This document shows, piece by piece, positions 1,407 through 13,105 of a stretch of DNA of 34,454 nucleotides. The DNA is from a virus. The stretch lies in the IMG/VR virus record IMGVR_UViG_3300048055_000061, positions 1 to 34,454 of that record, one strand, 5' to 3'. How positions within the stretch are numbered: the stretch's first letter is position 1; every line of letters begins with the position of its first letter. The translations under genes were made by a program, and so were the position numbers. Under the pieces are notes generated by a model. The model saw only the letters and a program-made list of their open reading frames with translations, did not search any database and was not told where the DNA came from.

Positions 1407-1700
1407 TTGGGTGACCTGACCGGCAAGATGGACCAGTTCGTGCAGGACTGGTCCCCGCAGCAAGGGCCGACTTGTTCGGTCGGAATGCTGATGGCCGCGC
1501 TCCCGAAGGAGGAGGCTGACGCACTGCGTCGCCTGTTCGCTTCGAGGGTCTACGCCACCGACATCTCCAAGTTCATCCAGAGCGAGGTCCCTGGCGAGCA
1601 TCCAGAGAAGCCCGCGATCGGCGCGCTCGCTCGCGCCGTCAAGCCTGACGCCACCCAGCGTCATCGGCGAGGAGCGTGCGGCTGCGAGGACAAGGGCTGA
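1407..1700 (+). CDS. Small HTH-like protein with C-terminal HRRGxCxC motif
   Basis: A 97-residue protein starting at TTG 1407, preceded by GGAGG at 1395-1399. It has a conserved-looking WSPQQGPTCSVG start, a helical centre (ALPKEEADALRRLF, then a second helix pair ending IGALARAVKPD) and a terminal RHRRGACGCEDKG. This layout matches a small protein common in actinobacteriophages and usually annotated as helix-turn-helix or hypothetical; that match is from memory. The Cys and basic residues at the end suggest nucleic-acid or metal binding. Its stop overlaps the next start (TGATG), so the two are translationally coupled. The palindrome over its RBS may mean autoregulation, which is inference. 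Confidence 0.6.
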   Translation: MGDLTGKMDQFVQDWSPQQGPTCSVGMLMAALPKEEADALRRLFASRVYATDISKFIQSEVPGEHPEKPAIGALARAVKPDATQRHRRGACGCEDKG

Positions 1701-3007
1701 TGTCGGACTTCTCCGAGAAGGCCGATCGCCTTCGGACCGTCGAGGACGAGAAGCGTCGAGCGTCGGAAGCCGACCGACGTGAGCCTCAGCACCCGAAGGG
1801 CTGGGAGCCGGGCGTCGAGTTCAACGGTCAGGTGGGCGTGCTCTCGACGGGTCCCCGCACCGAGCCGGGCGCGCCGAGCAACGGCGAGTGGACCGATCTC
1901 CTCGCGATTTGGGATCTCGACCCCGAGGTCTACGAGATCGACCCCAACTTCTCCCCGCAGTTCCGCGCGTGGGATGCGAACCTTGGCCGAGACTCCGACG
2001 GCGAGGCGTGTGTCCAGCGGTTCTACTACTACAAGGCCAACGTCCGGCTGCGATCGCGCTACTACGGACTGGACATCGAGGAACTGCTCGTGGGCCTCGG
2101 CGACCACAAGCGCCCCGAGTCGTCCCTCAGCGTCCCTGACAGCCCCGTGGGGATGGTCGTGCCCCTGTCGGACTGGCAGATCGGTAAGGGCGACGGAGAC
2201 GGCGTGAAGGGCACTCTGGAACGACTCGACGAGGTGAAGTGGCGGATCGTCGATCGCATCGCCGACGTGAAGCGCATGGGCTGGGAGATCGGCTGCCTGT
2301 ACCCCATCGGCATCGGCGATCTCGTCGAGCAGTGCTGGGGCAACTATCCGGCTCAGCCCTTCACCGTGGAACTGAATCGGCGCGAGCAGGTTCGACTCAC
2401 CCGGCGCGTGCTCCGCGACTACTTCATCGAGTGGTCCAAGCACGTGCCTCAGATCGTCGGCGGAGGCGTTGGCGGGAACCACGGTGAGAACCGCGGCGGA
2501 TCGTCGTCGTCAGGAGGTAAGGCCAAGTCGTTCACCACGCCCGGCGACAACGACGACGTGGCTGTGTTCGAGATGGTGGCCGAGACGCTCGCTCAGAACG
2601 ACGAAGCCTTCGGGCACATCCACTGGGCGATTCCTGACGAGTCCCTCAACCTCGTGCTCGACATCTACGGGACGATCGTCGGCTTCAACCACGGTCATCT
2701 AACCAAGGGCGGAGGTGATCCACAGCGAAAGATCCTGTCGTGGTGGAAGGACATGGGCCATCAGGAGCATCCGATCGGGGATGCCCACGTGCTCGTCACG
2801 GGCCATTACCACCACTTGCAGATCGTCGACCACGGGCCGAAGGTCTGGATCCAGTGTCCGAGTCTCGATGGCGGCTCGCGCTGGTGGCAGGACATGGGCG
2901 GAGGCCGATCGGCTTCCGGTCAGGTGTCCTTCCTCGTTGGTGCTCAGATGCCGAACGGCTGGGGCTGCCCGGACGTGATTCAGTTCGATCCCCCGCCGCC
3001 GGAGTAG
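1700..3007 (+). CDS. Metallophosphoesterase (calcineurin/Mre11-like)
   Basis: A 435-residue protein. The ATG at 1700 overlaps the previous stop; an in-frame GTG at 1676 would overlap the upstream gene more. All dimetal phosphoesterase motifs are visible: D158-W-Q160 (in place of the usual DxH), G206-D207 (GIGDLVE), GGN260-H261-GE, NHGH with H331/H333, and GHYHH with H369/H371. The first 145 residues are a family-specific N-terminal part (GWEPG, WDLDP, YKANVRLRSRYYG). In actinophages this enzyme commonly follows a small HRRGxCxC protein. It probably hydrolyses phosphodiesters, perhaps as a DNA nuclease or repair enzyme; the substrate cannot be told from sequence. Confidence 0.85.
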   Translation: MSDFSEKADRLRTVEDEKRRASEADRREPQHPKGWEPGVEFNGQVGVLSTGPRTEPGAPSNGEWTDLLAIWDLDPEVYEIDPNFSPQFRAWDANLGRDSDGEACVQRFYYYKANVRLRSRYYGLDIEELLVGLGDHKRPESSLSVPDSPVGMVVPLSDWQIGKGDGDGVKGTLERLDEVKWRIVDRIADVKRMGWEIGCLYPIGIGDLVEQCWGNYPAQPFTVELNRREQVRLTRRVLRDYFIEWSKHVPQIVGGGVGGNHGENRGGSSSSGGKAKSFTTPGDNDDVAVFEMVAETLAQNDEAFGHIHWAIPDESLNLVLDIYGTIVGFNHGHLTKGGGDPQRKILSWWKDMGHQEHPIGDAHVLVTGHYHHLQIVDHGPKVWIQCPSLDGGSRWWQDMGGGRSASGQVSFLVGAQMPNGWGCPDVIQFDPPPPE

Positions 3008-5537: not shown

Positions 5538-5624
5538 ATGATGCGAGCGACGAGGATCTTTACCGTCGCCACCGCCAGGCGCGGTGGTATCGCGGGGACC
5601 GTCGGGACGATCAGCACACGCTGA
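5538..5624 (+). CDS. Small basic peptide (28 aa)
   Basis: ATG 5538 follows a strong Shine-Dalgarno AAGGAGG with a 7-nt spacer, and the TACGGT promoter is 44 nt upstream. The product starts MMRATRIFTVATARRGG and ends IAGTVGTISTR: basic and mildly hydrophobic, without a clear domain. It ends 15 nt before the first tRNA-like gene, so it may be a leader peptide for the tRNA transcript. It is the best supported of the small ORFs in the island because of its RBS. No function is proposed. Confidence 0.45.
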   Translation: MMRATRIFTVATARRGGIAGTVGTISTR

Positions 5625-5639
5625 CCCCCCACAGTTCGT

Positions 5640-5711
5640 TGCGGGAGAGCCGGTGCTCGGGAGTGGCTCATAACCACACCTTGCTGGGACCAACACCCAG
5701 TCCCGCCACCA
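5640..5711 (+). tRNA. tRNA-Met(CAT), atypical
   Basis: Acceptor TGCGGGA/TCCCGCC with A73 and encoded CCA. Anticodon loop CTCATAA on stem AGTGG/CCACA; T-arm CTGGG/CCCAG with the unusual loop ACCAACA. The D-arm GAGC-CGGT-GCTC directly abuts the acceptor stem. Position 1-72 is a U-C mismatch, as might suit an initiator, but the three G-C pairs of initiators are incomplete. Reading as an Ile tRNA after lysidine modification is also possible. Confidence 0.6.
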
Positions 5712-5716
5712 CCTGC

Positions 5717-5795
5717 CGGAACCGCTAGAAGCCAATCGCCCTAGCGGGCTTGGCTGAGGTTCCGTTCCGGGTCGGGAGTGCAGGCTCCCGGCCCG
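5717..5795 (+). other. Structured stretch, possible tRNA remnant
   Basis: Overlapping inverted repeats: CGGAACC/GGTTCCG, CCGCTAG/CTAGCGG, GCCAA-GCCC/GGGC-TTGGC, and a 10-bp stem GGGTCGGGAG/CTCCCGGCCC. The first three are mutually exclusive. CGCTAGAAGC is identical to the 5' region of tRNA-Gly at 5904, suggesting a decayed tRNA or a folding switch. No plausible anticodon arm was found. Confidence 0.4.
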
Positions 5796-5799
5796 TCAC

Positions 5800-5870
5800 G
5801 GGGTACGCGCGTTGGGTCGCAGCCATCCCTTGCAAGGAAGGTCTGCTCGGATCGTCACCGAGGTACTCCA
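5800..5870 (+). tRNA. tRNA-Ala(TGC), atypical
   Basis: Acceptor GGGGTAC/GTACTCC includes the G3-U70 pair expected for alanine; A73, no encoded CCA. Anticodon loop CTTGCAA on stem CATCC/GGAAG (one mismatch). The T-loop ATCGTCA lacks the usual TTC, and the D-stem is only GCG/CGC next to the acceptor. Confidence 0.7.
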
Positions 5871-5902
5871 CTGCAAAGCAACCTGCTCTTTGACAAGTCC
5901 AC

Positions 5903-5977
5903 GCGCTAGAAGCATTGGTGGTGATGTGCCGTCCTTCCAAGTCGGGGAACCGAGTTCGACTCTCGGCTGGCGCTCCA
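5903..5977 (+). tRNA. tRNA-Gly(TCC)
   Basis: Acceptor GCGCTAG/CTGGCGC, T73 and encoded CCA. D-arm GCAT/ATGT, anticodon loop CTTCCAA on CCGTC/GTCGG (one T-T mismatch), T-loop TTCGACT. Confidence 0.88.
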
Positions 5978-5978
5978 T

Positions 5979-6053
5979 GCGATCGAGGTCTACTTGGCGA
6001 GACGCCACGGTGCCATCGTGGAGAACCGGGTTCGACTCCCGGCGATCGCTCCA
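5979..6053 (+). tRNA. tRNA-Gly(GCC)
   Basis: Acceptor GCGATCG/CGATCGC with T73 and CCA; D-arm GTCT/AGAC; anticodon loop GTGCCAT on CCACG/CGTGG; T-loop TTCGACT. One base after the preceding tRNA. Confidence 0.93.
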
Positions 6054-6054
6054 A

Positions 6055-6129
6055 GGGTCATTGGTGAAACTGGAATCACATGAGCGTGAAGCACTCAGGT
6101 TCTCGGTTCGAGTCCGGGGTGGCCCACCA
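6055..6129 (+). tRNA. tRNA-Phe(GAA)
   Basis: Acceptor GGGTCAT/GTGGCCC, A73 and CCA. D-arm GTGA/TCAC; anticodon loop GTGAAGC on TGAGC/ACTCA (C-A closing mismatch); T-arm CTCGG/CCGGG. Confidence 0.88.
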
Positions 6130-6136
6130 CAAACGC

Positions 6137-6211
6137 AGACCTGTAACTCAGCGGCAGAGTGCCTCCGTCACATGGAGGTGGCCGAGGGTTCGAGTCCCTC
6201 CGGGTCTACCA
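6137..6211 (+). tRNA. tRNA-Val(CAC)
   Basis: Acceptor AGACCTG/CGGGTCT, A73 and CCA. D-arm ACTC/GAGT; anticodon loop GTCACAT on CCTCC/GGAGG; T-arm GAGGG/CCCTC. Confidence 0.93.
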
Positions 6212-6212
6212 G

Positions 6213-6288
6213 TGCCAGCGGACCATCGGGTGATGGTGTCGTTCTGATAAGGCGACCGTGCAGAGTTCGAGTCTCTGGCTGGCAACCA
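6213..6288 (+). tRNA. tRNA-Ile(GAT)
   Basis: Acceptor TGCCAGC/GCTGGCA fully paired, A73 and CCA. D-arm ACCA/TGGT; anticodon loop CTGATAA on TCGTT/GGCGA; T-arm CAGAG/CTCTG. Confidence 0.93.
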
Positions 6289-6300
6289 CAAGAAACGCAA

Positions 6301-6372
6301 CGACCTGTGGCTCAGAGGCAGAGCAGCACCTCGACACGGTGAAGGTCGCAGGTTCGATTCCTGCCAGGTCGA
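6301..6372 (+). tRNA. tRNA-Val(GAC), C33 variant
   Basis: Acceptor CGACCTG/CAGGTCG, A73, no CCA. D-arm GCTC/GAGC; anticodon stem GCACC/GGTGA with loop TCGACAC, so position 33 is C rather than the near-universal U. T-arm GCAGG/CCTGC. Isotype taken from GAC; the shifted loop makes this less certain. Confidence 0.7.
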
Positions 6373-6383
6373 CAACAAGACGA

Positions 6384-6460
6384 AGGCACGAGGTCCGATC
6401 GGAACGGACGCCGGTTTCCTAAACCGGAGAGTGCGGGTTCGAGTCCCGCCGTGCCTGCCA
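6384..6460 (+). tRNA. tRNA-Arg(CCT)
   Basis: Acceptor AGGCACG/CGTGCCT, G73 and CCA. D-arm GTCC/GGAC; anticodon loop TTCCTAA on CCGGT/ACCGG; T-arm GCGGG/CCCGC. Reads AGG, a rare codon in a GC-rich genome. Confidence 0.93.
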
Positions 6461-6461
6461 C

Positions 6462-6533
6462 GCACCCGTGGTTCATCAGGTAGAACACCGCTCTCGTAAA
6501 GCGGAGGGGCCGGTTCGAGTCCGGCCGGGTGCT
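6462..6533 (+). tRNA. tRNA-Thr(CGT)
   Basis: Acceptor GCACCCG/CGGGTGC, T73, no CCA. D-arm GTTC/GAAC; anticodon loop CTCGTAA on CCGCT/AGCGG; T-arm GCCGG/CCGGC. Confidence 0.93.
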
Positions 6534-6544
6534 CGCAACAACAT

Positions 6545-6619
6545 GCCTCTGTGGTCCCAATGGTAGGACGTGTCCGTGGTAAGGACGAGGTTCGGGTTCG
6601 ATTCCCGGCGGAGGCTCCA
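6545..6619 (+). tRNA. tRNA-Thr(GGT)
   Basis: Acceptor GCCTCTG/CGGAGGC, T73 and CCA. D-arm GTCC/GGAC; anticodon loop GTGGTAA on TGTCC/GGACG; T-loop TTCGATT. Confidence 0.93.
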
Positions 6620-6620
6620 T

Positions 6621-6692
6621 GCCGTTGCTCACGGCTGAGGCCCCCTGCCTTGTAAGCGGGAGGCTCGGGGTCGGCACCCGGCAGCGGCTCCA
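6621..6692 (+). tRNA. tRNA-Thr(TGT), atypical
   Basis: Acceptor GCCGTTG/CAGCGGC, T73 and CCA. Anticodon loop CTTGTAA on CCTGC/GCGGG. The D-arm CTCA-CGGC-TGAG joins the acceptor directly, and the T-loop GTCGGCA lacks TTC. Completes a set of three Thr isoacceptors. Confidence 0.78.
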
Positions 6693-6709
6693 ACGAGAGA
6701 GGGAACATC

Positions 6710-7349
6710 ATGCGAGTAGAGATCAGGCCCGGTGAAGGTGGTGACGACGCTCAACGCTTCGCTCAGGAGTGTCTTTGACGCGCTCCTTCGAGCGGCTCGG
6801 CGGCGTGGTGATGAGGTCCGCTCGCGATCGTCCGGGCGCACCCTCTCGTTCGAGATCGGCGACGGTGAGTGGCTGAGGCCCTTCGTCGGCACCCACCGCG
6901 TCCAGCGCATCCCCAAGGGCGCATCAGCGCGCCACACCTCCACCGCGACGATCGCTCTCGTGGACGGTGATAGCCGAGGGGCTATCACGTTGGCAGAGGA
7001 CGACATCGAGGAGCGGTTCGACCGAGGCTCGGGTCCGGGCGGTCAGCATCAGAACACGACGGACTCGGCGGTCACCGTGATCCATCGCCCGACGGGGACC
7101 AGCGTCCACATCGAGGGGCGATCGCAGACCGAGAACCGGCGCAAGGCGCGCTCCGAGTTGGCTCGACGGCTGGATCGCCGGGCCGAGGCCGACACGTTGC
7201 GTATCCGCAACGCCCAGCGCCGCGAGCAGATCACCTCGGGCGAGCGGCCGGTCAAGCAGTTCACCCACAACACCCAGCGCAACGAGGTCGTCGACCACGA
7301 GACGGGCAGGAAGTGGACGCTCGATCGTTGGATGAAGGGCCGGTGGTAA
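6710..7349 (+). CDS. GGQ release factor-like protein with programmed +1 frameshift (joined product)
   Basis: The ATG at 6710 (RBS AGAGAGGG) reads 22 codons, starting MRVEIRPGEGGDDAQRFA, up to CTT TGA at 6773-6778. Skipping one base to read GAC at 6777 continues to TAA 7349 for a 212-residue product. Both halves match class-I release factors: EIRPGEGGDDA and THRVQRIPKGASARHTST are domain-2 motifs, and GSGPGGQHQNTTDSAV carries the peptidyl-tRNA hydrolysis motif GGQ (110-112). The shift site CAGGAG-TGT-CTT-TGA-C reproduces the E. coli prfB frameshift signal, including the 3-nt spacing from the SD-like AGGAG. The N-terminal domain 1 is missing and no clear SPF or PxT codon-recognition motif is seen, so it may act in rescue or as an unusual RF. 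It begins 17 bases after a tRNA gene. Confidence 0.88.
6768..6779 (+). promoter_or_regulatory. RF2-type +1 recoding site
   Basis: SD-like AGGAG (in 6765-6769), one TGT codon, then CTT TGA C. Stalling at TGA when RF2 is limiting would favour slippage from CTT to TTT in the +1 frame and resumption at GAC. Confidence 0.85.
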
Positions 7350-7358
7350 GTTCACCGC

Positions 7359-7487
7359 ATGGCCGACCGTCAGCCGCGCTACTGCCAGATCTGCAAGACC
7401 TATCGCGTGTTCGAGGGGGACCGCGAGGTCGAACCGTGTGCCTGCGAGGAGTGCCCCGGCGAGTGCATCTTCCTCGAAGCGGACTAG
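7359..7487 (+). CDS. Small zinc-ribbon-like protein (42 aa)
   Basis: ATG 7359, 9 nt after the release-factor stop. The product contains YCQICKTYRVFEGD and then PCACEECPGECIF: seven cysteines in 42 residues, arranged as CxxC followed by CxCxxCxxxC, so one or two metal sites are likely. There is no strong RBS, so it may depend on translational coupling with the upstream gene. Its last codons overlap the end of the convergent gene at 7484. No function can be assigned. Confidence 0.55.
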   Translation: MADRQPRYCQICKTYRVFEGDREVEPCACEECPGECIFLEAD

Positions 7488-7870
7488 GCGGCGATGAGTC
7501 CCTCGAAGGTGTCGGGGATTCCAGCGGAACCGTCGAGCGCGGCGATGGCCTCGTCAACCTCGATGATGAGCGCATCCTTGATCCGCACAGCCCCGGAGCG
7601 CCAGAGCACCTCCTCGGGGAAGATGGCGTCGGGCATGTCGTCGGTGGCGAACAGCACCGCAGCCTTGCGGCCCTCGTCACCGATCACACCGCAACCGCCG
7701 CCGTACTGCACACCGGGAACAGAGGAGCCGCCAACCGCAACGGCGTAGGCGGACTCACGAGTACCGGCCCGAACCTCGCCGGTAGCGACGATGGCCTCGG
7801 CGTCCTCGGCGGTGGTGAAGTGCACGTAGAGGCCGGTGATGATCTTGGTGACCAGGGTGGTTGCGTCCAT
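7484..7870 (-). CDS. Hypothetical protein, possible ADP-ribosyltransferase-like fold
   Basis: A 128-residue protein, leftward from ATG 7870. It opens LVTKIITGLYVHFTTAEDAE and continues AIVATGEVRAGTRESAYAV, a pattern (short strand, HxT, helix, IxxxGxI) seen in ART/PARP-like and RNA 2'-phosphotransferase-like proteins. A later segment VLFATDDMPDAIFPEEVLW could hold a catalytic Glu, but no H-Y-E triad can be assigned confidently, so the fold is a tentative idea. A GTGCAC-N17-TACAGT promoter ends six bases before the ATG (leaderless). It is one of few leftward genes here and converges on the release factor operon. Confidence 0.65.
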   Translation of the reverse strand: MDATTLVTKIITGLYVHFTTAEDAEAIVATGEVRAGTRESAYAVAVGGSSVPGVQYGGGCGVIGDEGRKAAVLFATDDMPDAIFPEEVLWRSGAVRIKDALIIEVDEAIAALDGSAGIPDTFEGLIAA

Positions 7871-7876
7871 GCCCTT

Positions 7877-7905
7877 ACTGTAGCAGGCTCGACGACACCG
7901 TGCAC
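7877..7905 (-). promoter_or_regulatory. Promoter of the leftward gene, leaderless geometry
   Basis: Minus-strand GTGCAC, 17-nt spacer, TACAGT preceded by TGC, then AAGGGC and ATG 7870. Confidence 0.55.
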
Positions 7906-7920
7906 AAACCTCTCGATCGC

Positions 7921-7942
7921 TGTCCCGCGCTGGTGCTATCCT
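7921..7942 (+). promoter_or_regulatory. TGTCCC-N10-TATCCT promoter
   Basis: Seven bases separate TATCCT from an ATG at 7950. The sequence upstream (GATCGCTGTCCCG) is shared with the tmRNA promoter. Likely drives the tRNA block from 8074. Confidence 0.6.
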
Positions 7943-7949
7943 GACCCCC

Positions 7950-8036
7950 ATGACGTTGAACGTGCGAGATCGAGAGCGGGTGGAGCGATGGCTCCCCGTT
8001 GCGCGCGCTTCCGTCCCTGAACCCTCGGATCGGTAG
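7950..8036 (+). CDS. Small Arg-rich ORF (28 aa), leaderless
   Basis: ATG 7950 lies seven bases after the -10 box TATCCT, where +1 is expected. The product is MTLNVRDRERVERWLPVARA followed by SVPEPSDR, highly charged. The sequence alone cannot tell a real peptide from a chance ORF, but four other copies of this promoter are likewise followed by a start codon. It could be a leader peptide for the downstream tRNA transcript. Confidence 0.35.
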   Translation: MTLNVRDRERVERWLPVARASVPEPSDR

Positions 8037-8073
8037 CGGCGCTGGGGCATCAGCCCTCGCTCCGCCACATCAT

Positions 8074-8151
8074 GCCGCTGTAGGGGAAATGGTCAGACCC
8101 ACCTGCCTCTCACGCAGGGACTTGCCGGTTCGAGTCCGGTCAGCGGTACCA
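8074..8151 (+). tRNA. tRNA-Glu(CTC)
   Basis: Acceptor GCCGCTG/CAGCGGT, A73 and CCA; D-stem GGG/CCC with long loop; anticodon loop CTCTCAC on CCTGC/GCAGG; T-arm GCCGG/CCGGT. Confidence 0.92.
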
Positions 8152-8152
8152 A

Positions 8153-8228
8153 GGTCCATTGGAGGAGTCAGGCCGTCCTCGCCTCCCTGTCACGGAGGAA
8201 ACCACGGGTTCAAATCCCGTATGGACCG
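8153..8228 (+). tRNA. tRNA-Asp(GTC)
   Basis: Acceptor GGTCCAT/ATGGACC, G73, no CCA; D-arm GAGG/CCTC; anticodon loop CTGTCAC on CCTCC/GGAGG; T-arm ACGGG/CCCGT with TTCAAAT. Confidence 0.93.
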
Positions 8229-8242
8229 CGTAGCAACAACAA

Positions 8243-8318
8243 GCCCCGGTGGTGGAACGGTAGACACACCTGTCTTTCACACAGGCTCTTGCGGGTTCGA
8301 GTCCCGTCCGGGGTTCCA
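8243..8318 (+). tRNA. tRNA-Glu(TTC)
   Basis: Acceptor GCCCCGG/CCGGGGT, T73 and CCA; D-stem GTG/CAC; anticodon loop CTTTCAC on CCTGT/ACAGG; T-arm GCGGG/CCCGT. Confidence 0.92.
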
Positions 8319-8327
8319 GAAAATCAT

Positions 8328-8395
8328 GCGCCGGGTGCTGGGCACGGGTTGGCCTCCAAAACCGACCTTGCGGAGTTCGATCCTCTGACGGCGTG
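8328..8395 (+). tRNA. tRNA-Trp(CCA), compact
   Basis: Acceptor GCGCCGG/ACGGCGT (one mismatch), G73, no CCA. D-arm GTGC-TGG-GCAC directly abuts the acceptor. Anticodon loop CTCCAAA on TTGGC/ACCGA; T-arm CGGAG/CTCTG with TTCGATC. Only 68 nt. Confidence 0.78.
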
Positions 8396-8411
8396 CAACT
8401 CACGAGGTCGA

Positions 8412-8433
8412 TGTCCGATCCTCGTGCTACGGT
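8412..8433 (+). promoter_or_regulatory. TGTCCG-N10-TACGGT promoter
   Basis: TGC precedes the TACGGT -10. It lies between tRNA-Trp and the Leu tRNAs. An ATG follows after nine bases at 8443. Confidence 0.6.
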
Positions 8434-8442
8434 GAGGTCACC

Positions 8443-8508
8443 ATGAAGCAGCGACTACGACTTCGACGGCCCGGTGTGGCCGAGAGACTCCGACGATTGT
8501 CGGCGTAG
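8443..8508 (+). CDS. Very small Arg-rich ORF (21 aa)
   Basis: ATG 8443 follows the TACGGT box by nine bases, with GAGGTCACC between (a weak RBS). The product begins MKQRLRLRRPGVAERLRR: nine arginines in 21 residues. It overlaps the start of the tRNA-like hairpin at 8468, so translation would interfere with that structure. Possibly a regulatory or fortuitous ORF. Confidence 0.3.
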   Translation: MKQRLRLRRPGVAERLRRLSA

Positions 8509-8531
8509 TCACTCGCGCTCCTACCGGGCCA
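8468..8531 (+). other. tRNA-like hairpin element, possible tRNA remnant
   Basis: The ends GGCCCGGT and ACCGGGCC form an 8-bp acceptor-like stem. Inside is a second hairpin GACT-CCGAC-GATT-GTCGG-AGTC. There is no T-arm and no 7-base anticodon loop. It sits exactly where a tRNA would fit between Trp and Leu, so a degenerate tRNA is likely. Confidence 0.45.
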
Positions 8532-8543
8532 ACCCAACTCCTT

Positions 8544-8629
8544 GCGAGTGTGGCGGAACGGTAGACGCAGCAGTCTGAGAGGCTGCCGGGCTTCGGCCCA
8601 TGTGGGTTCGACTCCCTCCACTCGCACCA
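8544..8629 (+). tRNA. tRNA-Leu(GAG)
   Basis: Class II tRNA. Acceptor GCGAGTG/CACTCGC, A73 and CCA; anticodon loop CTGAGAG on GCAGT/GCTGC; variable arm GGGCTTCGGCCC; T-loop TTCGACT (one stem mismatch). Confidence 0.92.
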
Positions 8630-8630
8630 C

Positions 8631-8712
8631 GTGACCGTGGTGGAACTGGCAGACACGCTGTGCTCAGAACGCAGTGCCTTCGGGCGTGAGGGTTCAACTC
8701 CCTCCGGTCACA
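8631..8712 (+). tRNA. tRNA-Leu(CAG)
   Basis: Class II. Acceptor GTGACCG/CGGTCAC, A73, no CCA; anticodon loop CTCAGAA on CTGTG/CGCAG; variable arm GCCTTCGGGC; T-arm GAGGG/CCCTC. Confidence 0.93.
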
Positions 8713-8725
8713 CTCAACACAACTA

Positions 8726-8807
8726 GCCGATGTGGCGGAACTGGTAGACGCGCCGGATTCAAGTCCCGGTGTCCTCGGGCGTGTGGGTTCGACTCCCACC
8801 ATCGGCA
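8726..8807 (+). tRNA. tRNA-Leu(CAA)
   Basis: Class II. Acceptor GCCGATG/CATCGGC, A73, no CCA; anticodon loop TTCAAGT on CCGGA/CCCGG (A-C closing mismatch); variable arm GTCCTCGGGC; T-arm GTGGG/CCCAC. Confidence 0.92.
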
Positions 8808-8816
8808 CGCATACAT

Positions 8817-8891
8817 GCCCCGTTAGTTCAGTTGGATCAGAACGCGCGACTACGAATCGCGAGGCCGCAGGTTCGAGTCCTGCACGGGGCA
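8817..8891 (+). tRNA. tRNA-Arg(ACG)
   Basis: Acceptor GCCCCGT/ACGGGGC, A73, no CCA; D-arm GTTC/GAAC; anticodon loop CTACGAA on CGCGA/TCGCG; T-arm GCAGG/CCTGC. A34 would need deamination to inosine by host TadA. Confidence 0.94.
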
Positions 8892-8893
8892 CT

Positions 8894-8925
8894 GCGCCGG
8901 TTGGGTTCGACTCCCGACCGGGGCG
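8894..8925 (+). pseudogene. tRNA minihelix (acceptor plus T-arm only)
   Basis: GCGCC-GGTTGGG-TTCGACT-CCCGACC-GG-GGCGC folds as a 12-bp helix with a two-base bulge and a perfect T-loop. The D and anticodon arms are absent. It looks like a deletion product of a tRNA, located between two Arg tRNAs. Confidence 0.5.
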
Positions 8926-8971
8926 CTCAATACCTCACTCGATCGGGATACCTCACCGTGACAGTGAACAT

Positions 8972-9040
8972 GCCTCCATCAGCGGATCTGACGCTGGGCT
9001 TCCGAAGCCTGGTTGGTGAGTTCGACTCTCGCTGGGGGCG
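8972..9040 (+). tRNA. tRNA-Arg(CCG)
   Basis: Acceptor GCCTCCA/TGGGGGC, G73, no CCA; D-arm GCG/CGC; anticodon loop TTCCGAA on TGGGC/GCCTG; T-arm GTGAG/CTCGC. Slightly short between D and anticodon stems. Confidence 0.85.
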
Positions 9041-9044
9041 CTCT

Positions 9045-9114
9045 GCCCTCGCCTGTGGATCAGGTCCAGCGGCTTCTATCTGCATGGTGGCGGGTTCGAG
9101 TCCTGCCGAGGGCG
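9045..9114 (+). tRNA. tRNA-Arg(TCT), compact D-arm
   Basis: Acceptor GCCCTCG/CGAGGGC, G73, no CCA. D-arm CCTG-TGGAT-CAGG abuts the acceptor; anticodon loop CTTCTAT on AGCGG/CTGCA (A-A mismatch); T-arm GCGGG/CCTGC. Reads AGA. Confidence 0.82.
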
Positions 9115-9151
9115 CTCGATCGAGGGTGGCGCGCACGTCTCGGTGGTGTGG

Positions 9152-9157
9152 TACACT
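9152..9157 (+). promoter_or_regulatory. Extended -10 (TGG-TACACT)
   Basis: Seven bases before the ATG at 9165; no good -35. Consistent with a leaderless transcript. Confidence 0.4.
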
Positions 9158-9164
9158 TGTAGAC

Positions 9165-9548
9165 ATGAGGAACCACACCTACCGATGCGGGATCTGCGGC
9201 CAGACGAGCCAGCATCCTGCCGACGACGACACCCCGGTCTGCAACAACTCGGCCCACTGTGGCCTGCTGTTCGAGGACGAGATCGTCAAGCCCGAGGTCC
9301 CGACGAAGCGCAGCATCAAGTTCTCGCTCATCGGCGAGGGTCACGTCCAGGGCGACGACCGCGAGTACGAGGTCATCGTGCGAGGCCGGTACATCGGCAT
9401 CGTCTCCGCCGAGCAGCGTCCGGCTGTCCACAAGACCAACGAGGATCACTTCATCGACGGCTTCGCCTTCGGTGGCGAGGTCGACGGAGCCAACCGCTAC
9501 GGCTGGGGACGCACTCGGGCCGAGGCCGTGCTCGACGCCTTCTCCTGA
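9165..9548 (+). CDS. Hypothetical protein with N-terminal zinc knuckle (127 aa)
   Basis: Begins MRNHTYRCGICGQTSQ, with further Cys at VCNNSAHCG, a probable CxxC...C...C zinc site in the first 35 residues. The remainder looks beta-rich (SIKFSLIGEGH, YEVIVRGRYIGIVS) and ends GWGRTRAEAVLDAFS. No membrane segment. ATG 9165 was chosen because the TACACT box is seven bases upstream, and the long upstream extension of the frame passes through tRNA genes. It separates the Arg tRNAs from the Tyr/Ser block. Not recognised; possibly a small regulatory or RNA-binding protein. Confidence 0.7.
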   Translation: MRNHTYRCGICGQTSQHPADDDTPVCNNSAHCGLLFEDEIVKPEVPTKRSIKFSLIGEGHVQGDDREYEVIVRGRYIGIVSAEQRPAVHKTNEDHFIDGFAFGGEVDGANRYGWGRTRAEAVLDAFS

Positions 9549-9562
9549 ATCCACCACGGCGA

Positions 9563-9584
9563 TGTCCGGCACTGGTGCTACGAT
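9563..9584 (+). promoter_or_regulatory. TGTCCG-N10-TACGAT promoter
   Basis: Upstream of the tRNA-Tyr/Ser block. TGC precedes TACGAT, and a GTG codon follows seven bases later at 9592. Confidence 0.6.
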
Positions 9585-9591
9585 CGCTCTC

Positions 9592-9648
9592 GTGCGTACC
9601 ACCTATTCGTCCTCCGAGATCTGTCACGACTCCTCATCGAGTCGCTGA
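9592..9648 (+). CDS. Possible leaderless mini-ORF (18 aa, GTG start)
   Basis: GTG 9592 lies at the predicted transcription start. The product, MRTTYSSSEICHDSSSSR, is Ser-rich, unlike the Arg-rich siblings. Only the promoter geometry supports it. Confidence 0.2.
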   Translation: MRTTYSSSEICHDSSSSR

Positions 9649-9682
9649 CCGGGGCGCGCTCACATATCGGTGCGTCCCCCAC

Positions 9683-9761
9683 GAGAGGGACGCTCCAAGG
9701 TGGACAACCTGGCTGTAAACCGGGTGCTTCGGCGTGGTGGGTTCGATTCCCACGCCTCTCA
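9683..9761 (+). tRNA. tRNA-Tyr(GTA)
   Basis: Class II. Acceptor GAGAGGG/GCCTCTC (G-G at 7-66), A73, no CCA; anticodon loop CTGTAAA on CCTGG/CCGGG; variable arm with CTTCGG; T-arm GTGGG/CCCAC. Confidence 0.88.
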
Positions 9762-9767
9762 CTTCAA

Positions 9768-9850
9768 GGAAGGTGTGCGAGGCGTGGGCCTCGGTCCGGT
9801 TGCTACCCGGTGCGCTCCCTGTGGGTGAGGTTCGACTCCTCCGCCTTCCG
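9768..9850 (+). tRNA. tRNA-Ser(GCT)
   Basis: Class II. Acceptor GGAAGGT/GCCTTCC, G73; anticodon loop TTGCTAC on TCCGG/CCGGT; variable arm CCCTGTGGG; T-loop TTCGACT. Confidence 0.88.
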
Positions 9851-9902
9851 CTTGTCGCCGAGCGACGACATCGCGTAGATGTTGCCGATCGACGACAGAC
9901 AT

Positions 9903-9989
9903 GGAAGGTGCCGCTGGGTTGGCTGGCAACTGGTGTCGAAAGCCAGGGCGTTCTAACGGGCGGGGGTTCGACTCCTCCACCTTCCGCCA
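9903..9989 (+). tRNA. tRNA-Ser(CGA)
   Basis: Class II. Acceptor GGAAGGT/ACCTTCC, G73 and CCA; anticodon loop GTCGAAA on CTGGT/GCCAG; T-arm GGGGG/CCTCC. Confidence 0.9.
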
Positions 9990-10009
9990 ATGTGACCGAT
10001 CAGTCACAA

Positions 10010-10096
10010 GGAGAGTGGACCGGGCAGGCGTACCGGCACCCGTTGGAAGCGGGTTGGGTCCCGAAAGGGGGTGGGGTTCGAGTCCTCGTCTCTCCG
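10010..10096 (+). tRNA. tRNA-Ser(GGA)
   Basis: Class II. Acceptor GGAGAGT/TCTCTCC (T-T at 7-66), G73; anticodon loop TTGGAAG on ACCCG/CGGGT; variable arm GTCCCGAAAGGGG; T-arm TGGGG/CCTCG. Confidence 0.9.
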
Positions 10097-10126
10097 CTGA
10101 GAGGTTCTCGTCACGAGATCCTGTCT

Positions 10127-10172
10127 TGTCGTCGAACGGCGACATCGACATAGTGTCGTCGAACAGCGACAT
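10127..10172 (+). repeat. Two direct copies of a TGTCG...CGACA hairpin
   Basis: TGTCGTCGAACGGCGACAT (10127-10145) and TGTCGTCGAACAGCGACAT (10154-10172) differ by one base and repeat every 27 nt. Each can form a 5-bp stem. A related hairpin occurs at 9853-9870. They fill spacers between Ser and Cys tRNAs and could be processing signals. Confidence 0.6.
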
Positions 10173-10177
10173 GCCAC

Positions 10178-10254
10178 GCATCGGTGCCCGAGCGGCCAAG
10201 GGAACGGTCTGCAAAGCCGTACAACCGTGGGTTCGAGTCCCACCCGGTGCTCCA
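10178..10254 (+). tRNA. tRNA-Cys(GCA)
   Basis: Acceptor GCATCGG/CCGGTGC, T73 and CCA; D-stem CCC/GGG; anticodon loop CTGCAAA on ACGGT/GCCGT; T-arm GTGGG/CCCAC. U73 is the Cys identity base. Confidence 0.92.
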
Positions 10255-10277
10255 CGATCAGAAACCTCCACGGGCAA

Positions 10278-10299
10278 TGTCCCGTGCGCGTGGTACCTT
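10278..10299 (+). promoter_or_regulatory. TGTCCC-N10-TACCTT promoter with palindrome
   Basis: TGG precedes TACCTT; ATG 10307 follows seven bases later. The upstream element is the right half of CACGGG-CAAT-GT-CCCGTG, a palindrome that could also bind a regulator. Confidence 0.6.
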
Positions 10300-10306
10300 G
10301 GTTCCC

Positions 10307-10381
10307 ATGAGGATCCAACGACCTACCCCAGCGAATCGGCAGCGGCGCAAGCCGCATCAGCCGACGCGCGCTCGGGCGTAG
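10307..10381 (+). CDS. Small Arg-rich ORF (24 aa), leaderless
   Basis: ATG 10307 lies seven bases after TACCTT. The product begins MRIQRPTPANRQRRKPHQP and ends TRARA: about one third Arg/Lys, no hydrophobic core. With the ORFs at 7950 and 8443 it forms a set of basic mini-ORFs at the same place relative to the same promoter, just ahead of tRNA blocks. Translation is not proven. Confidence 0.35.
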   Translation: MRIQRPTPANRQRRKPHQPTRARA

Positions 10382-10433
10382 GCGGGTTCCTCCCTAGAAC
10401 CTCCTCACACCTCGTCCGAGCGACTCAACGCTC

Positions 10434-10505
10434 CGGGGTGTGGCTCAGTGGTAGAGCACTCGGTTTGGGACCGAGGGACCGTAGGTTCGATTCCTGCCAC
10501 CCCGA
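10434..10505 (+). tRNA. tRNA-Pro(TGG)
   Basis: Acceptor CGGGGTG/CACCCCG, A73, no CCA; D-arm GCTC/GAGC; anticodon loop TTTGGGA on CTCGG/CCGAG; T-arm GTAGG/CCTGC. Confidence 0.94.
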
Positions 10506-10510
10506 CTGAC

Positions 10511-10546
10511 ATAAGCGTTGTGCTCATCGCGCAACGCTGGCTTATG
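10511..10546 (+). other. Inverted repeat between Pro tRNAs
   Basis: AGCGTTG (10514-10520) pairs with CAACGCT, flanked by ATAAGC and GCTTAT. A strong stem-loop in the spacer, possibly a processing site. Confidence 0.5.
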
Positions 10547-10552
10547 AGTCAA

Positions 10553-10627
10553 CGGGTGGTAGCGCAGTCTGGTCAGCGTACTCGCTTCGGAAGCGAGTGG
10601 TCGCAGGTTCAAATCCTGCCCACCCGA
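10553..10627 (+). tRNA. tRNA-Pro(CGG)
   Basis: Acceptor CGGGTGG/CCACCCG, A73; D-arm GCGC/GCGT; anticodon loop TTCGGAA on CTCGC/GCGAG; T-arm GCAGG/CCTGC. Confidence 0.94.
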
Positions 10628-10639
10628 CGGAAACAACAA

Positions 10640-10713
10640 CGGACTGTGGCGCAGTTTGGTAGCGCACTCGCCTGGGGGGCGAGGGGTCGGGAGTTCGAGT
10701 CTCCCCAGTCCGA
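10640..10713 (+). tRNA. tRNA-Pro(GGG)
   Basis: Acceptor CGGACTG/CAGTCCG, A73; D-arm GCGC/GCGC; anticodon loop CTGGGGG on CTCGC/GCGAG; T-arm GGGAG/CTCCC. The anticodon stem is identical to the CGG isoacceptor, suggesting duplication. Confidence 0.94.
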
Positions 10714-10726
10714 CGCAAGACAACCT

Positions 10727-10797
10727 TCCCGGTTGGTGTAATGGCAACACGCGTGACTCTGAATCACGAGTTGGGAGTTCGAGCCTCTCGCTGGGAG
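10727..10797 (+). tRNA. tRNA-Gln(CTG)
   Basis: Acceptor TCCCGGT/GCTGGGA, G73; D-stem GTG/CAC; anticodon loop CTCTGAA on CGTGA/TCACG; T-arm GGGAG/CTCTC. Confidence 0.92.
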
Positions 10798-10862
10798 CGC
10801 AAGGAAAGCCACACGATCGAGAGCCGATCGGTGGGACAAGATGTGGGAGGAGGTGCTTCCCG

Positions 10863-11378
10863 ATGAACAAGGACGTGCTGGTGCTCGACGCGGCGTACAT
10901 GCCCCTCGGCGTCATCTCCCCGCGCAGGGCGGTGGTGTTGGCGTTGATGGACCTGGCTGAGATCGTGGCTGAGGGAGAAGGGGAGTGCCGCTCCCCGTCG
11001 ATCTCCGTCCCGTGGCCCGAGGTCGTCCGGCTCAACTGGATGGTCAAGGTGCCGGATCGTGCTCGCATCCCGGTCAACAAGAGGAACGTGCTCGCTCGCG
11101 ACAACGGGCGGTGCGCCTACCGGCGCTCCAACCCCGACGAGTGCGAGGGCAAGGCATCGTCCGTCGACCACGTGCGGCCTCGGTCGCGCGGTGGTCGTCA
11201 CCGTTGGGACAACGTGGTGGCCTCGTGCTCGCCATGCAACTCCCGCAAGGACAACGCTCTCCTCACCGAGATCGGCTGGGAGTCAGCCAACGATCCCTAC
11301 GTGCCGCGAGGCGCGCTGTGGTTCGCTCTGGCTCACACCCCGCTGCCGTCGTGGGAGCCGTACTTGGCGGCGGCATAG
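10863..11378 (+). CDS. HNH endonuclease
   Basis: A 171-residue protein; ATG 10863 follows GGAGGAGG. The C-terminal half is an HNH nuclease: RDNGRCAYRRSNPDEC, then SSVDHVRPRSRGG (catalytic DH), WDNVVASCSPCNSRKDN (the N and CxxCN parts). The first zinc knuckle, normally CxxC, reads CAYR, so one metal ligand may be lost or supplied by the nearby Cys of DECEG. The N-terminal half (VLVLDAAYMPLGVISPRRAV) is the usual partner domain of this actinophage HNH family. It lies inside the tRNA array, where free-standing homing-type nucleases are common and may help gene conversion. The stop is 5 nt before tRNA-Gln. Confidence 0.88.
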   Translation: MNKDVLVLDAAYMPLGVISPRRAVVLALMDLAEIVAEGEGECRSPSISVPWPEVVRLNWMVKVPDRARIPVNKRNVLARDNGRCAYRRSNPDECEGKASSVDHVRPRSRGGRHRWDNVVASCSPCNSRKDNALLTEIGWESANDPYVPRGALWFALAHTPLPSWEPYLAAA

Positions 11379-11383
11379 GGCCT

Positions 11384-11454
11384 TCGGGGATCGTTCAACG
11401 GCAGGACGCGACTCTTTGGAAGTCGTCATGGAGGTTCGAGTCCTCCTCCCCGAG
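11384..11454 (+). tRNA. tRNA-Gln(TTG)
   Basis: Acceptor TCGGGGA/TCCCCGA, G73; D-arm GTTC/GGAC; anticodon loop CTTTGGA on CGACT/AGTCG; T-arm GGAGG/CCTCC. Confidence 0.94.
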
Positions 11455-11494
11455 CGCAAGACAAGCACCTGATCGAGAGGTCGGGGATCATCAT

Positions 11495-11569
11495 GGTGAT
11501 CGTGGTCCAACGGCATGACGCCGGGTTGTGTCCCCGGAGATGGCGGTTCGATTCCGCTCGGTCACCCCA
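11495..11569 (+). tRNA. tRNA-His(GTG)
   Basis: Encodes the extra G-1 opposite C73, the histidine identity pair, and CCA. Acceptor GTGATCG/CGGTCAC; anticodon loop TTGTGTC on CCGGG/CCCGG; T-arm GGCGG/CCGCT. Confidence 0.93.
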
Positions 11570-11570
11570 T

Positions 11571-11641
11571 TGCAGAGTGGTGAAATGGCATCACGCGCGG
11601 TTGTTACCCGCGAGTTCGGGGTTCGAGTCCCTGCTTTGCAG
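11571..11641 (+). tRNA. tRNA-Asn(GTT)
   Basis: Acceptor TGCAGAG/CTTTGCA, G73; D-arm GTGA/TCAC; anticodon loop TTGTTAC on CGCGG/CCGCG; T-arm CGGGG/CCCTG. Confidence 0.93.
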
Positions 11642-11670
11642 CCATGTTCAGTCTGATCTTCTTCCGTGAT

Positions 11671-11699
11671 GCGAGCGGCCGAGCACACCTCGGCCTCGC
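11671..11699 (+). other. Strong stem-loop between Asn and Lys tRNAs
   Basis: GCGA-GC-GGCCGAG-CACAC-CTCGGCC-TCGC: an 11-bp stem with a 2-nt bulge, no T-tract. It lies in a 93-nt spacer that otherwise shows no gene. Confidence 0.45.
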
Positions 11700-11734
11700 G
11701 AAACGCGCCCGGCGAAAGCCCAAGCGCGCACCGC

Positions 11735-11808
11735 GGAGGTAGCACCCGACAGGACTGGGTACCGGGCTTTTACCCCGGATTGAGTGGGTTCGAGTCCCAC
11801 TGCCTCTA
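11735..11808 (+). tRNA. tRNA-Lys(TTT)
   Basis: Acceptor GGAGGTA/TGCCTCT, A73; D-arm ACCC/GGGT; anticodon loop CTTTTAC on CCGGG/CCCGG; T-arm GTGGG/CCCAC. Confidence 0.93.
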
Positions 11809-11812
11809 CCGC

Positions 11813-11887
11813 GGGGGTGAAGCATTGACGGCGATGCACCCGGCTCTTACCCGGAAGAACAGGGTTCGACTCCCTGTACCCCTACCA
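11813..11887 (+). tRNA. tRNA-Lys(CTT)
   Basis: Acceptor GGGGGTG/TACCCCT, A73 and CCA; D-arm GCAT/ATGC; anticodon loop CTCTTAC on CCCGG/CCGGA; T-arm CAGGG/CCCTG. Last tRNA of the array. Confidence 0.93.
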
Positions 11888-12852: not shown

Positions 12853-13044
12853 ATGTCCCCCGTCAGCGAAGCAATCGAGATCGCAGTCGAACTAGATCAG
12901 ATCCGTCAGGTCTACGGGTCTGACTGCGCCACGTTCGTTGAGCGCGCGTTGCGCTCCTGCACCACCGACGATTGGAAGTCGATCGTCACCGCGGCCGTTT
13001 TCGAGTGGTCAACGCGGCATCGTCGCGAGCAGTTCGTCGCGTGA
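12853..13044 (+). CDS. Hypothetical small protein (63 aa)
   Basis: ATG 12853 has a strong RBS, AAGGAGGTG, and a TACACT -10-like box at 12828-12833. The product MSPVSEAIEIAVELDQIRQV continues YGSDCATFVERALRSC and ends TRHRREQFVA: helical, with a basic tail. Unlike its leaderless neighbours it has a conventional leader. Last accessory gene before the capsid gene; function unknown. Confidence 0.65.
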   Translation: MSPVSEAIEIAVELDQIRQVYGSDCATFVERALRSCTTDDWKSIVTAAVFEWSTRHRREQFVA

Positions 13045-13105
13045 TCCAACCCTCACCCTAGAGTTGAGGTTGAGGGTATCCACGGGAGAACACGAGTCTC
13101 CTGTC

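Follow-up and report, generated by a model that had tools for sequence, protein, structure and literature searches.

The pyrrolysine tRNA, tRNA-Pyl, has a short linker and a shortened D region. In metazoan mitochondrial tRNAs, the D-arm is reduced and connector bases are missing. Here we describe six compact tRNAs encoded in a viral DNA fragment of 34,454 bases (IMG/VR record IMGVR_UViG_3300048055_000061), the whole of which we call the window. Like the tRNA-Pyl of Methanosarcina, in which it is described by PMC9976931 and which is nevertheless charged and decodes, they have a small D-loop. They differ from tRNA-Pyl, which has one dedicated synthetase and one isotype, in that the compact form is found in ordinary Thr, Trp, Ala, Arg and Met tRNAs, and their anticodon stem has the normal 5 base pairs (bp). 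Unlike the mitochondrial tRNAs, they have a 4-bp D-stem under compensatory change with GG in its loop, and they belong to phages that depend on bacterial synthetases. The loss of both GG and the conserved T-loop that marks the elbow-less mitochondrial class is not found in the compact phage tRNAs as a group. We think that the six are probably functional tRNAs with a compact architecture, shortened mainly in isotypes whose D-arm is scarcely read by the synthetase. The compact form is not confined to one phage, and we regard it as a new tRNA variant, not as a new kind.

The tRNA array of the window spans positions 5640 to 11887, and a transfer-messenger RNA is also encoded in the window. Default ARAGORN listed 29 tRNAs. 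Seven more were readable (Met, Ala, Ile(GAT), Thr(TGT), Trp, Arg(CCG) and Arg(TCT)), giving 36 in total and serving all 20 amino acids. Our own parser fixes the acceptor, anticodon and T stems and leaves the D region free between 8 and 24 nucleotides (nt); its scoring favors canonical geometry. It saw 35 of the 36 tRNAs, missing Val(GAC). The D region measured 14 to 17 nt in six of these 35, compared with 18 to 22 nt in the other 29. The six, all on the plus strand, are Met(CAT), Ala(TGC), Thr(TGT), Trp(CCA), Arg(CCG) and Arg(TCT). Each has a 7-bp acceptor stem, a 5-bp anticodon stem whose 7-nt loop includes T33, and a 5-bp T-stem with a 7-nt loop, with no more than one mismatch per stem. In place of the canonical connector bases 8 and 9, D-loop of 7 to 11 nt and single base 26, the Met, Thr, Trp and both Arg tRNAs have no connector, a D-loop of 3 to 5 nt and three or four spacer bases; Ala is ambiguous.

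The initiator-type tRNA-Met(CAT) lies at 5640-5711 (cloverleaf 5640-5707 plus a 3' tail) and was found by the parser and by ARAGORN in mitochondrial mode. Its D-arm reads GAGC-cggt-GCTC with spacer ggg, its T-loop is ACCAACA, and ACCA is encoded; positions 1 and 72 are unpaired (T1xC72), a bacterial initiator feature, and C1xC72 was read by hand in Met of loci L002 and L004. The parser placed tRNA-Ala(TGC) at 5800-5870 (cloverleaf 5800-5869), with a 17-nt D region (GCG, 8 nt, CGC, then agc), G3.U70 and T-loop ATCGTCA, and tRNA-Thr(TGT) at 6621-6692 (cloverleaf 6621-6688), with D-arm CTCA-cggc-TGAG, four spacer bases (gccc), T-loop GTCGGCA and an encoded CCA. The tRNA-Trp(CCA) at 8328-8396 (cloverleaf 8328-8394), read by the parser and the Trp alignment, has GTGC-tgg-GCAC, spacer ggg, G73 and a TTC T-loop; CCA is not encoded. 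Both Arg tRNAs were recovered by the parser, ARAGORN's mitochondrial mode and the Arg alignment, and both have TTC T-loops: Arg(CCG) at 8972-9041 (cloverleaf 8972-9039) reads TCAG-cggat-CTGA with spacer cgc, and Arg(TCT) at 9045-9115 (cloverleaf 9045-9113) reads CCTG-tggat-CAGG with spacer tcc. Charging elements are retained: G3.U70 in Ala, G1-C72 and C2-G71 in Thr, G73 in Trp, and C35, G73 and an A20-like base in Arg. An earlier sequence-only reading had listed five of these tRNAs, and all five cloverleaves lie where it put them; it overlooked Arg(CCG). It had described a D-stem joined to the acceptor followed by exactly three bases, which is right for Met, Trp and Arg(TCT) but not for Thr, which has four, nor clearly for Ala. 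The very short D-loops it saw in Met, Thr, Trp and Arg(TCT) (3-5 nt) and the encoded CCA in Met and Thr are indeed present.

Neither default ARAGORN nor the Rfam tRNA model (RF00005, E up to 1) detected any of the six, while ARAGORN's mitochondrial mode found five, two of them with shifted ends. The six scored 15.4 to 18.9 in our parser, and the best score elsewhere (rest of the plus strand, whole minus strand) was 14.75; this background scan of the window ruled out chance as their source. All 20 complete Escherichia coli K-12 tRNAs in four control fragments parsed as canonical, with D regions of 18 to 20 nt. For Met, Thr, Trp and both Arg, no canonical fold did better in the parser. Single-sequence minimum-energy folding is a poor judge of compact D-arms: it gave the compact hairpin in Met and Trp only, and Ala, Thr and both Arg folded otherwise. 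Hence, the support for the compact D-arm is comparative.

For this comparison we assembled 835 distinct array tRNAs from 201 loci, with relatives found via two array-adjacent proteins, the release-factor-like open reading frame (ORF) and the ORF at 1676-3007. Duplicate loci (L001, L003, L025, L026), the tRNA-free L190 and identical sequences were dropped from the counts, as were tRNAs that scored below 15 or had fewer than two strong neighbors within 1.5 kb. Doubtful rows were retained: NiceHouse Arg(TCT), which its depositors call Thr, NiceHouse Met, River4 Phe (score 15.0) and L187 Tyr (15.1). The Arg(TCT) of L002 fell below the parser threshold and was used in alignment A5 only. We tested geometry on the 66 distinct D regions of 14 to 17 nt from Thr, Trp, Ala, Arg and Met. 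With no linker, a 4-bp stem, a loop and three spacer bases, 224 of 264 cells were paired and 46 of 66 rows were fully paired; eleven other geometries paired at most 128 of the 264 cells. Shuffling partners between rows gave 124±7 cells and reached 224 in none of 2,000 trials, and shuffling letters within rows left at most seven rows fully paired. The result was unchanged when the D-arm term was omitted from the selection score.

Tool-made alignments of single isotypes point the same way. In Thr(GGT) from eight Caulobacter/Brevundimonas phages and in Trp from four relatives, all D-stem cells are paired and three of four pairs have changed on both sides. In eight Arg genes, including two from mycobacteriophages, the D-stem is fully paired, all four pairs have changed on both sides, and GGA is invariant. 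A second form of Trp, with one linker base and a 5-bp stem, occurs in L105 and in two of the same-array phages defined below (C and H). Read across these sequences, the helices of the compact tRNAs are maintained by compensatory change. The short D-arm joined directly to the acceptor is real and conserved, and the suggestion that these genes are not decaying is borne out by the compensatory D-stem changes and the recurring geometry. Evidently, a bacterial-type tRNA can drop its two connector bases, along with most of its D-loop, and yet stay under selection.

The sequence-only reading had proposed that the compact tRNAs lack the elbow formed by the D-loop and T-loop. As a general rule we reject this: GG is present in the D-loop region of 74 of 81 compact tRNAs, and T54 in 70 of 81 of their T-loops. 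Its observation that the T-loops of Met, Ala and Thr are not TTC is correct as written, but Ala and Thr keep T55-C56, with T54 alone replaced. All three have a purine at 54 together with A60. Such T-loops are not tied to short D-arms alone, since T54 is lost in 11 of 81 compact tRNAs and also in 36 of 742 of canonical length; further odd T-loops in canonical-length phage tRNAs, from L002 (5336, 5515) and L047, read CGCACAT, TGCGAGT and GGCAGCA. A60 accompanies the loss of T54 in 31 of 47 tRNAs, compared with 11 of 788 that have T54. Among compact tRNAs, a non-T54 T-loop goes with a CGGC or CGGT D-loop in 7 of 12 cases but with other D-loops in only 4 of 69 (Fisher p 6e-5; rows related). In Thr(TGT), the CGGC D-loop and GTCGGCA T-loop are constant among the window, L002 and L086, and both stems vary. 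This association suggests that the contact is kept or re-fitted. The odd T-loops therefore point to an altered but retained elbow contact, and elbow loss is better replaced by a shortened, mostly kept elbow. A54 with A60 recalls the T-loop of eukaryotic initiator tRNAs, but the similar purine 54 and A60 occur here mostly in elongator tRNAs of phages.

Which tRNAs are compact? By isotype, the counts were 28 of 63 for Thr, 10 of 22 for Trp, 11 of 41 for Ala, 15 of 68 for Arg, 5 of 29 for His, 3 of 35 for Met, 3 of 25 for Tyr, 4 of 79 for Ser and 1 of 24 for Phe. No compact gene was found for Gly, Val, Ile, Glu, Asp, Leu, Pro, Cys, Gln, Asn or Lys. Table 1 of Giege and Eriani (PMC9976931) lists bacterial core-region determinants for Cys, Ile, Leu, Glu, Gln, Pro, Ser, Asp and Phe; among the compact isotypes, it lists A20 for Arg, A9 for Trp and G20 for Ala, and it has none for Met, Val, Tyr, Gly, His, Thr, Asn and Lys. 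Compact genes made up 39 of 303 without a determinant in that table, 5 of 400 in the group from Cys to Phe, and 36 of 131 in Arg, Trp and Ala. GGA was present in 14 of 15 compact Arg and in 15 of 64 of other isotypes (stem letters counted too). The loss of connector bases and most of the D-loop seems to follow what each synthetase reads.

The sequences show the design itself, its recurrence in different phages and its compensatory changes: a 4-bp D-stem begins straight after the acceptor stem, three bases lead to the anticodon stem, and the D-loop is trimmed to 3 to 6 nt with GG retained for the T-loop. Beyond this we envisage the following. Compaction would be tolerated mainly by isotypes whose synthetase recognizes the anticodon and the acceptor end, not the D-arm (Thr, Trp, Ala and Met); in Arg, with an enzyme that reads A20, an A after GG is retained. 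In a few tRNAs, a changed T-loop (purine 54 and A60) is matched to a CGGC or CGGT D-loop, which would amount to a re-fitted elbow. Because phage tRNAs are spare copies, a D-arm deletion would be survivable and could then be mended by pairing. The compact tRNAs would be co-transcribed with the rest of their block and then processed; host synthetases would charge them, and the ribosome would use them.

Several observations weigh against this account. The compared rows are kin, so our tests overstate their independence. The window Ala D-arm is ambiguous, with a parse that has two linker bases equally possible. The window Trp has G7xA66, C31xA39, G1.U72 and no CCA, and this tRNA may be failing. 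GGA can also be read in some Caulobacter Thr loops. Finally, Val, Gly, Asn and Lys have no listed core determinant yet are never compact; hence, synthetase tolerance cannot be the whole rule.

Compact genes are patchy among the phages that share the array, which we designate A (L002/L108), B (L004/L030), C (L028/L109), D (L029/L110), E (L032/L111), F (L031), G (L027), H (L143/L181) and W, the window. Compact Trp occurs in W, A, B, C, E and H but not D, and compact Thr(TGT) in all but D. Compact Thr(CGT) is found in D and E, Arg(ACG) in A, D and H, Arg(CCG) in W, A and H, and Arg(CCT) in E and H. Within this group only W has a compact Met; Met genes of A to E and H are canonical (18 to 19 nt). 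Less related phages also carry compact tRNAs: L086/L182 (three Thr, Arg, Ala), L105/L183 (Thr, Trp, two Arg), L103 (Met), L052 (Thr, Ser) and L088 (Trp). An A28xA42 anticodon-stem mismatch is common to compact Ala of the window (5800), L002 (5076) and Caulobacter phages (L194, 10809), which could reflect either gene exchange or convergence. BLAST of the array against phage records returned no close relative, and default ARAGORN found no tRNA in the compared pieces of capsid relatives L010 to L024.

Such tRNAs had been thought odd in a phage. However, the same shape occurs in cultured ones: Mycobacterium phages LinStu (C1; compact Trp, Tyr, Arg(CCG) and an amber-reading tRNA) and Phabba (C2; Arg(CCG)), Caulobacter/Brevundimonas phages (Thr(GGT), Thr(CGT), Ala(TGC) and His, not all in each phage) and Vibrio phage River4 (Trp). 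D regions of 14 to 17 nt were absent from Streptomyces phage Beuffert and Sphingobium phage Lacusarx, and no tRNA was listed in Gilgamesh stretch 1-50000. Many compact genes are unlabelled in cultured-phage records, so phage tRNA counts and codon-supply studies miss them. The LinStu Arg(CCG) gene matched 186 records, 176 at at least 99% identity; among the 40 matches listed, 32 are unlabelled, five are tRNA-Gly and three are tRNA-Arg. In LinStu (L191, 14855-14924) and some other C1 phages it is annotated tRNA-Gly(tcc), and in ET08 and Pio tRNA-Arg. For the Caulobacter Thr pair, 28 of 35 records among the matches listed are unlabelled, and two more records have no annotation at all. The LinStu amber-reading tRNA (CTA; 10298-10370) is annotated tRNA-Sup. 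According to PMC6409571, 44 of 55 mycobacteriophages carry a pyrrolysine-type tRNA, which is perhaps the LinStu gene. Searches of open-licence papers listed no account of compact tRNAs in phages or of leader ORFs matched to tRNAs, which is a weak negative.

The his and trp transcription attenuators have leader peptides with codons of the amino acid concerned. Mycobacteria have leaderless cysteine-rich small ORFs (PMC4633059). In the window, each of the five tRNA blocks is similarly preceded by a short plus-strand ORF whose residues match the tRNAs of that block. The first (5538-5624; 28 amino acids, Shine-Dalgarno type) precedes the block Met Ala Gly Gly Phe Val Ile Val Arg Thr Thr Thr, and 26 of its 27 post-start residues match. 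The second (7950-8036), of leaderless type with its start 7 nt after TGCTATCCT, precedes Glu Asp Glu Trp (6 of 27 match). The third (8443-8508) precedes Leu Leu Leu Arg Arg Arg (11 of 20), the fourth (9592-9648) Tyr Ser Ser Ser Cys (9 of 17), and the fifth (10307-10381) Pro Pro Pro Gln Gln His Asn Lys Lys (10 of 23). Four of the five start 7 to 9 nt after the promoter-like motif TGNTANNNT. Our rule for leaders, written after seeing those of the window, demanded this motif, 12 to 60 amino acids and a stop within 160 nt of a tRNA. Over all 36 candidates in nine phages, poor ones included, own-block matches numbered 494, compared with 217±34 when blocks were permuted within phages; none of 200,000 permutations reached 494. 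For the window leaders, the true assignment was the best of 120.

The pattern recurs in relatives A to H and in Caulobacter/Brevundimonas phages. In Caulobacter phage Ccr32, gp082, annotated as hypothetical, precedes the block Pro Pro Thr Thr Lys Lys Leu Leu Leu His Ala Ser Ser, and 41 of its 44 residues are among the amino acids of that block. This was the top match among 269 candidate ORFs upstream of 131 blocks in 16 array loci. Eight of nine Caulobacter/Brevundimonas loci have a leader in the same place, with 31 to 42 of 41 to 44 residues matching; the ninth, Colossus, gave no candidate. The leader of Caulobacter phages abounds in Thr, Ala and His. In Ccr32, Magneto and Rogue, its block supplies these three amino acids by compact tRNAs only, and this supports the compact genes as working members. 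A GC-rich hairpin lies between the stop codon of leader 4 and the first tRNA of the Tyr-Ser block in the window, and GC-rich hairpins whose sequence varies occupy this place in C, E, F, G and H as well; in A and D the folding is less clear. The hairpins after the leader stop in Tyr-Ser and Glu-Asp blocks have no U-tract. As in the attenuators and cysteine-rich small ORFs, a short codon-matched ORF adjoins putatively controlled genes, with a GC-rich hairpin in several blocks; unlike there, the genes behind are tRNA blocks, and the codons cover the isotypes of the block. Codon-matched leaders suggest attenuation, and the ORFs are possible tRNA-sensing attenuators. We are evenly divided on whether the blocks of tRNA-rich phages are small self-adjusting operons, in which ribosome stalling on a leader for want of a charged tRNA would open the matching block, compact tRNAs included, and in which the D-arm was repeatedly minimised and the elbow re-fitted. 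If they are, codon-matched leaders would explain how phages set the amount of each tRNA.

Could the six instead be decaying pseudo-tRNAs with accidental small hairpins? The mismatches and absent CCA of the window Trp would fit, default tRNA finders miss all six, and the annotation of phage Colossus labels one compact Thr as tRNA-Pseudo. The compensatory D-stem changes strongly contradict it, however; moreover, a single geometry recurs, identity bases are kept, and the compact Arg(CCG) is at least 99% identical in 176 records, a weak point as C1 phages are close kin. Because of the D-stem covariation, we consider decay very unlikely. The 3-nt D-loop of Trp, the absence of T54 from Met, Ala and Thr, and the CC in place of TC at 55-56 in Met would suit mitochondrial-type tRNAs whose D-loop/T-loop contact is really lost, as the sequence-only reading held. 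Retention of GG and T54 in most compact tRNAs, and the association between their D-loops and T-loops, make this improbable.

It is likewise unlikely that the short arm was selected to escape a host enzyme gripping the D-arm or elbow, such as a tRNA nuclease, toxin or modifying enzyme. Compaction recurs in unrelated phages, the missing positions 8 and 9 would presumably delete a modification site (s4U8), and the title of PMC10264068 claims escape through an anticodon-loop change in phage tRNAs. Yet compaction varies patchily from one isotype to another, the same gene is canonical in sister phages, and no enzyme that would single out these isotypes is known to us. A role outside translation, as decoys, processing signals or sources of fragments, is hardly credible: nothing speaks for it directly beyond weak anticodon stems in some of the tRNAs, while anticodon loops, T33 and synthetase identity bases are kept and the leader ORFs list the same amino acids. 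Working compact tRNAs remain our preferred reading, and they would offer natural minimal tRNAs for decoding and orthogonal-tRNA work.

Two other features lie within the array. Downstream of the canonical Arg(ACG), an orphan T-arm and acceptor 3' half is found at 8893-8930. By eye it is similar to the 3' half (13020-13047) of the compact Arg(ACG) in L002, and it looks as if the canonical Arg(ACG) took the place of a compact gene. A release-factor-like gene at 6710-7349 matches Pfam RF-1 and aligns to RF1 residues 124-330. It has an in-frame stop within CTTTGA at 6773, which we take to resemble the programmed +1 frameshift site of bacterial RF2. The same site stands in the same context in L002 (8039) and L004 (8042).

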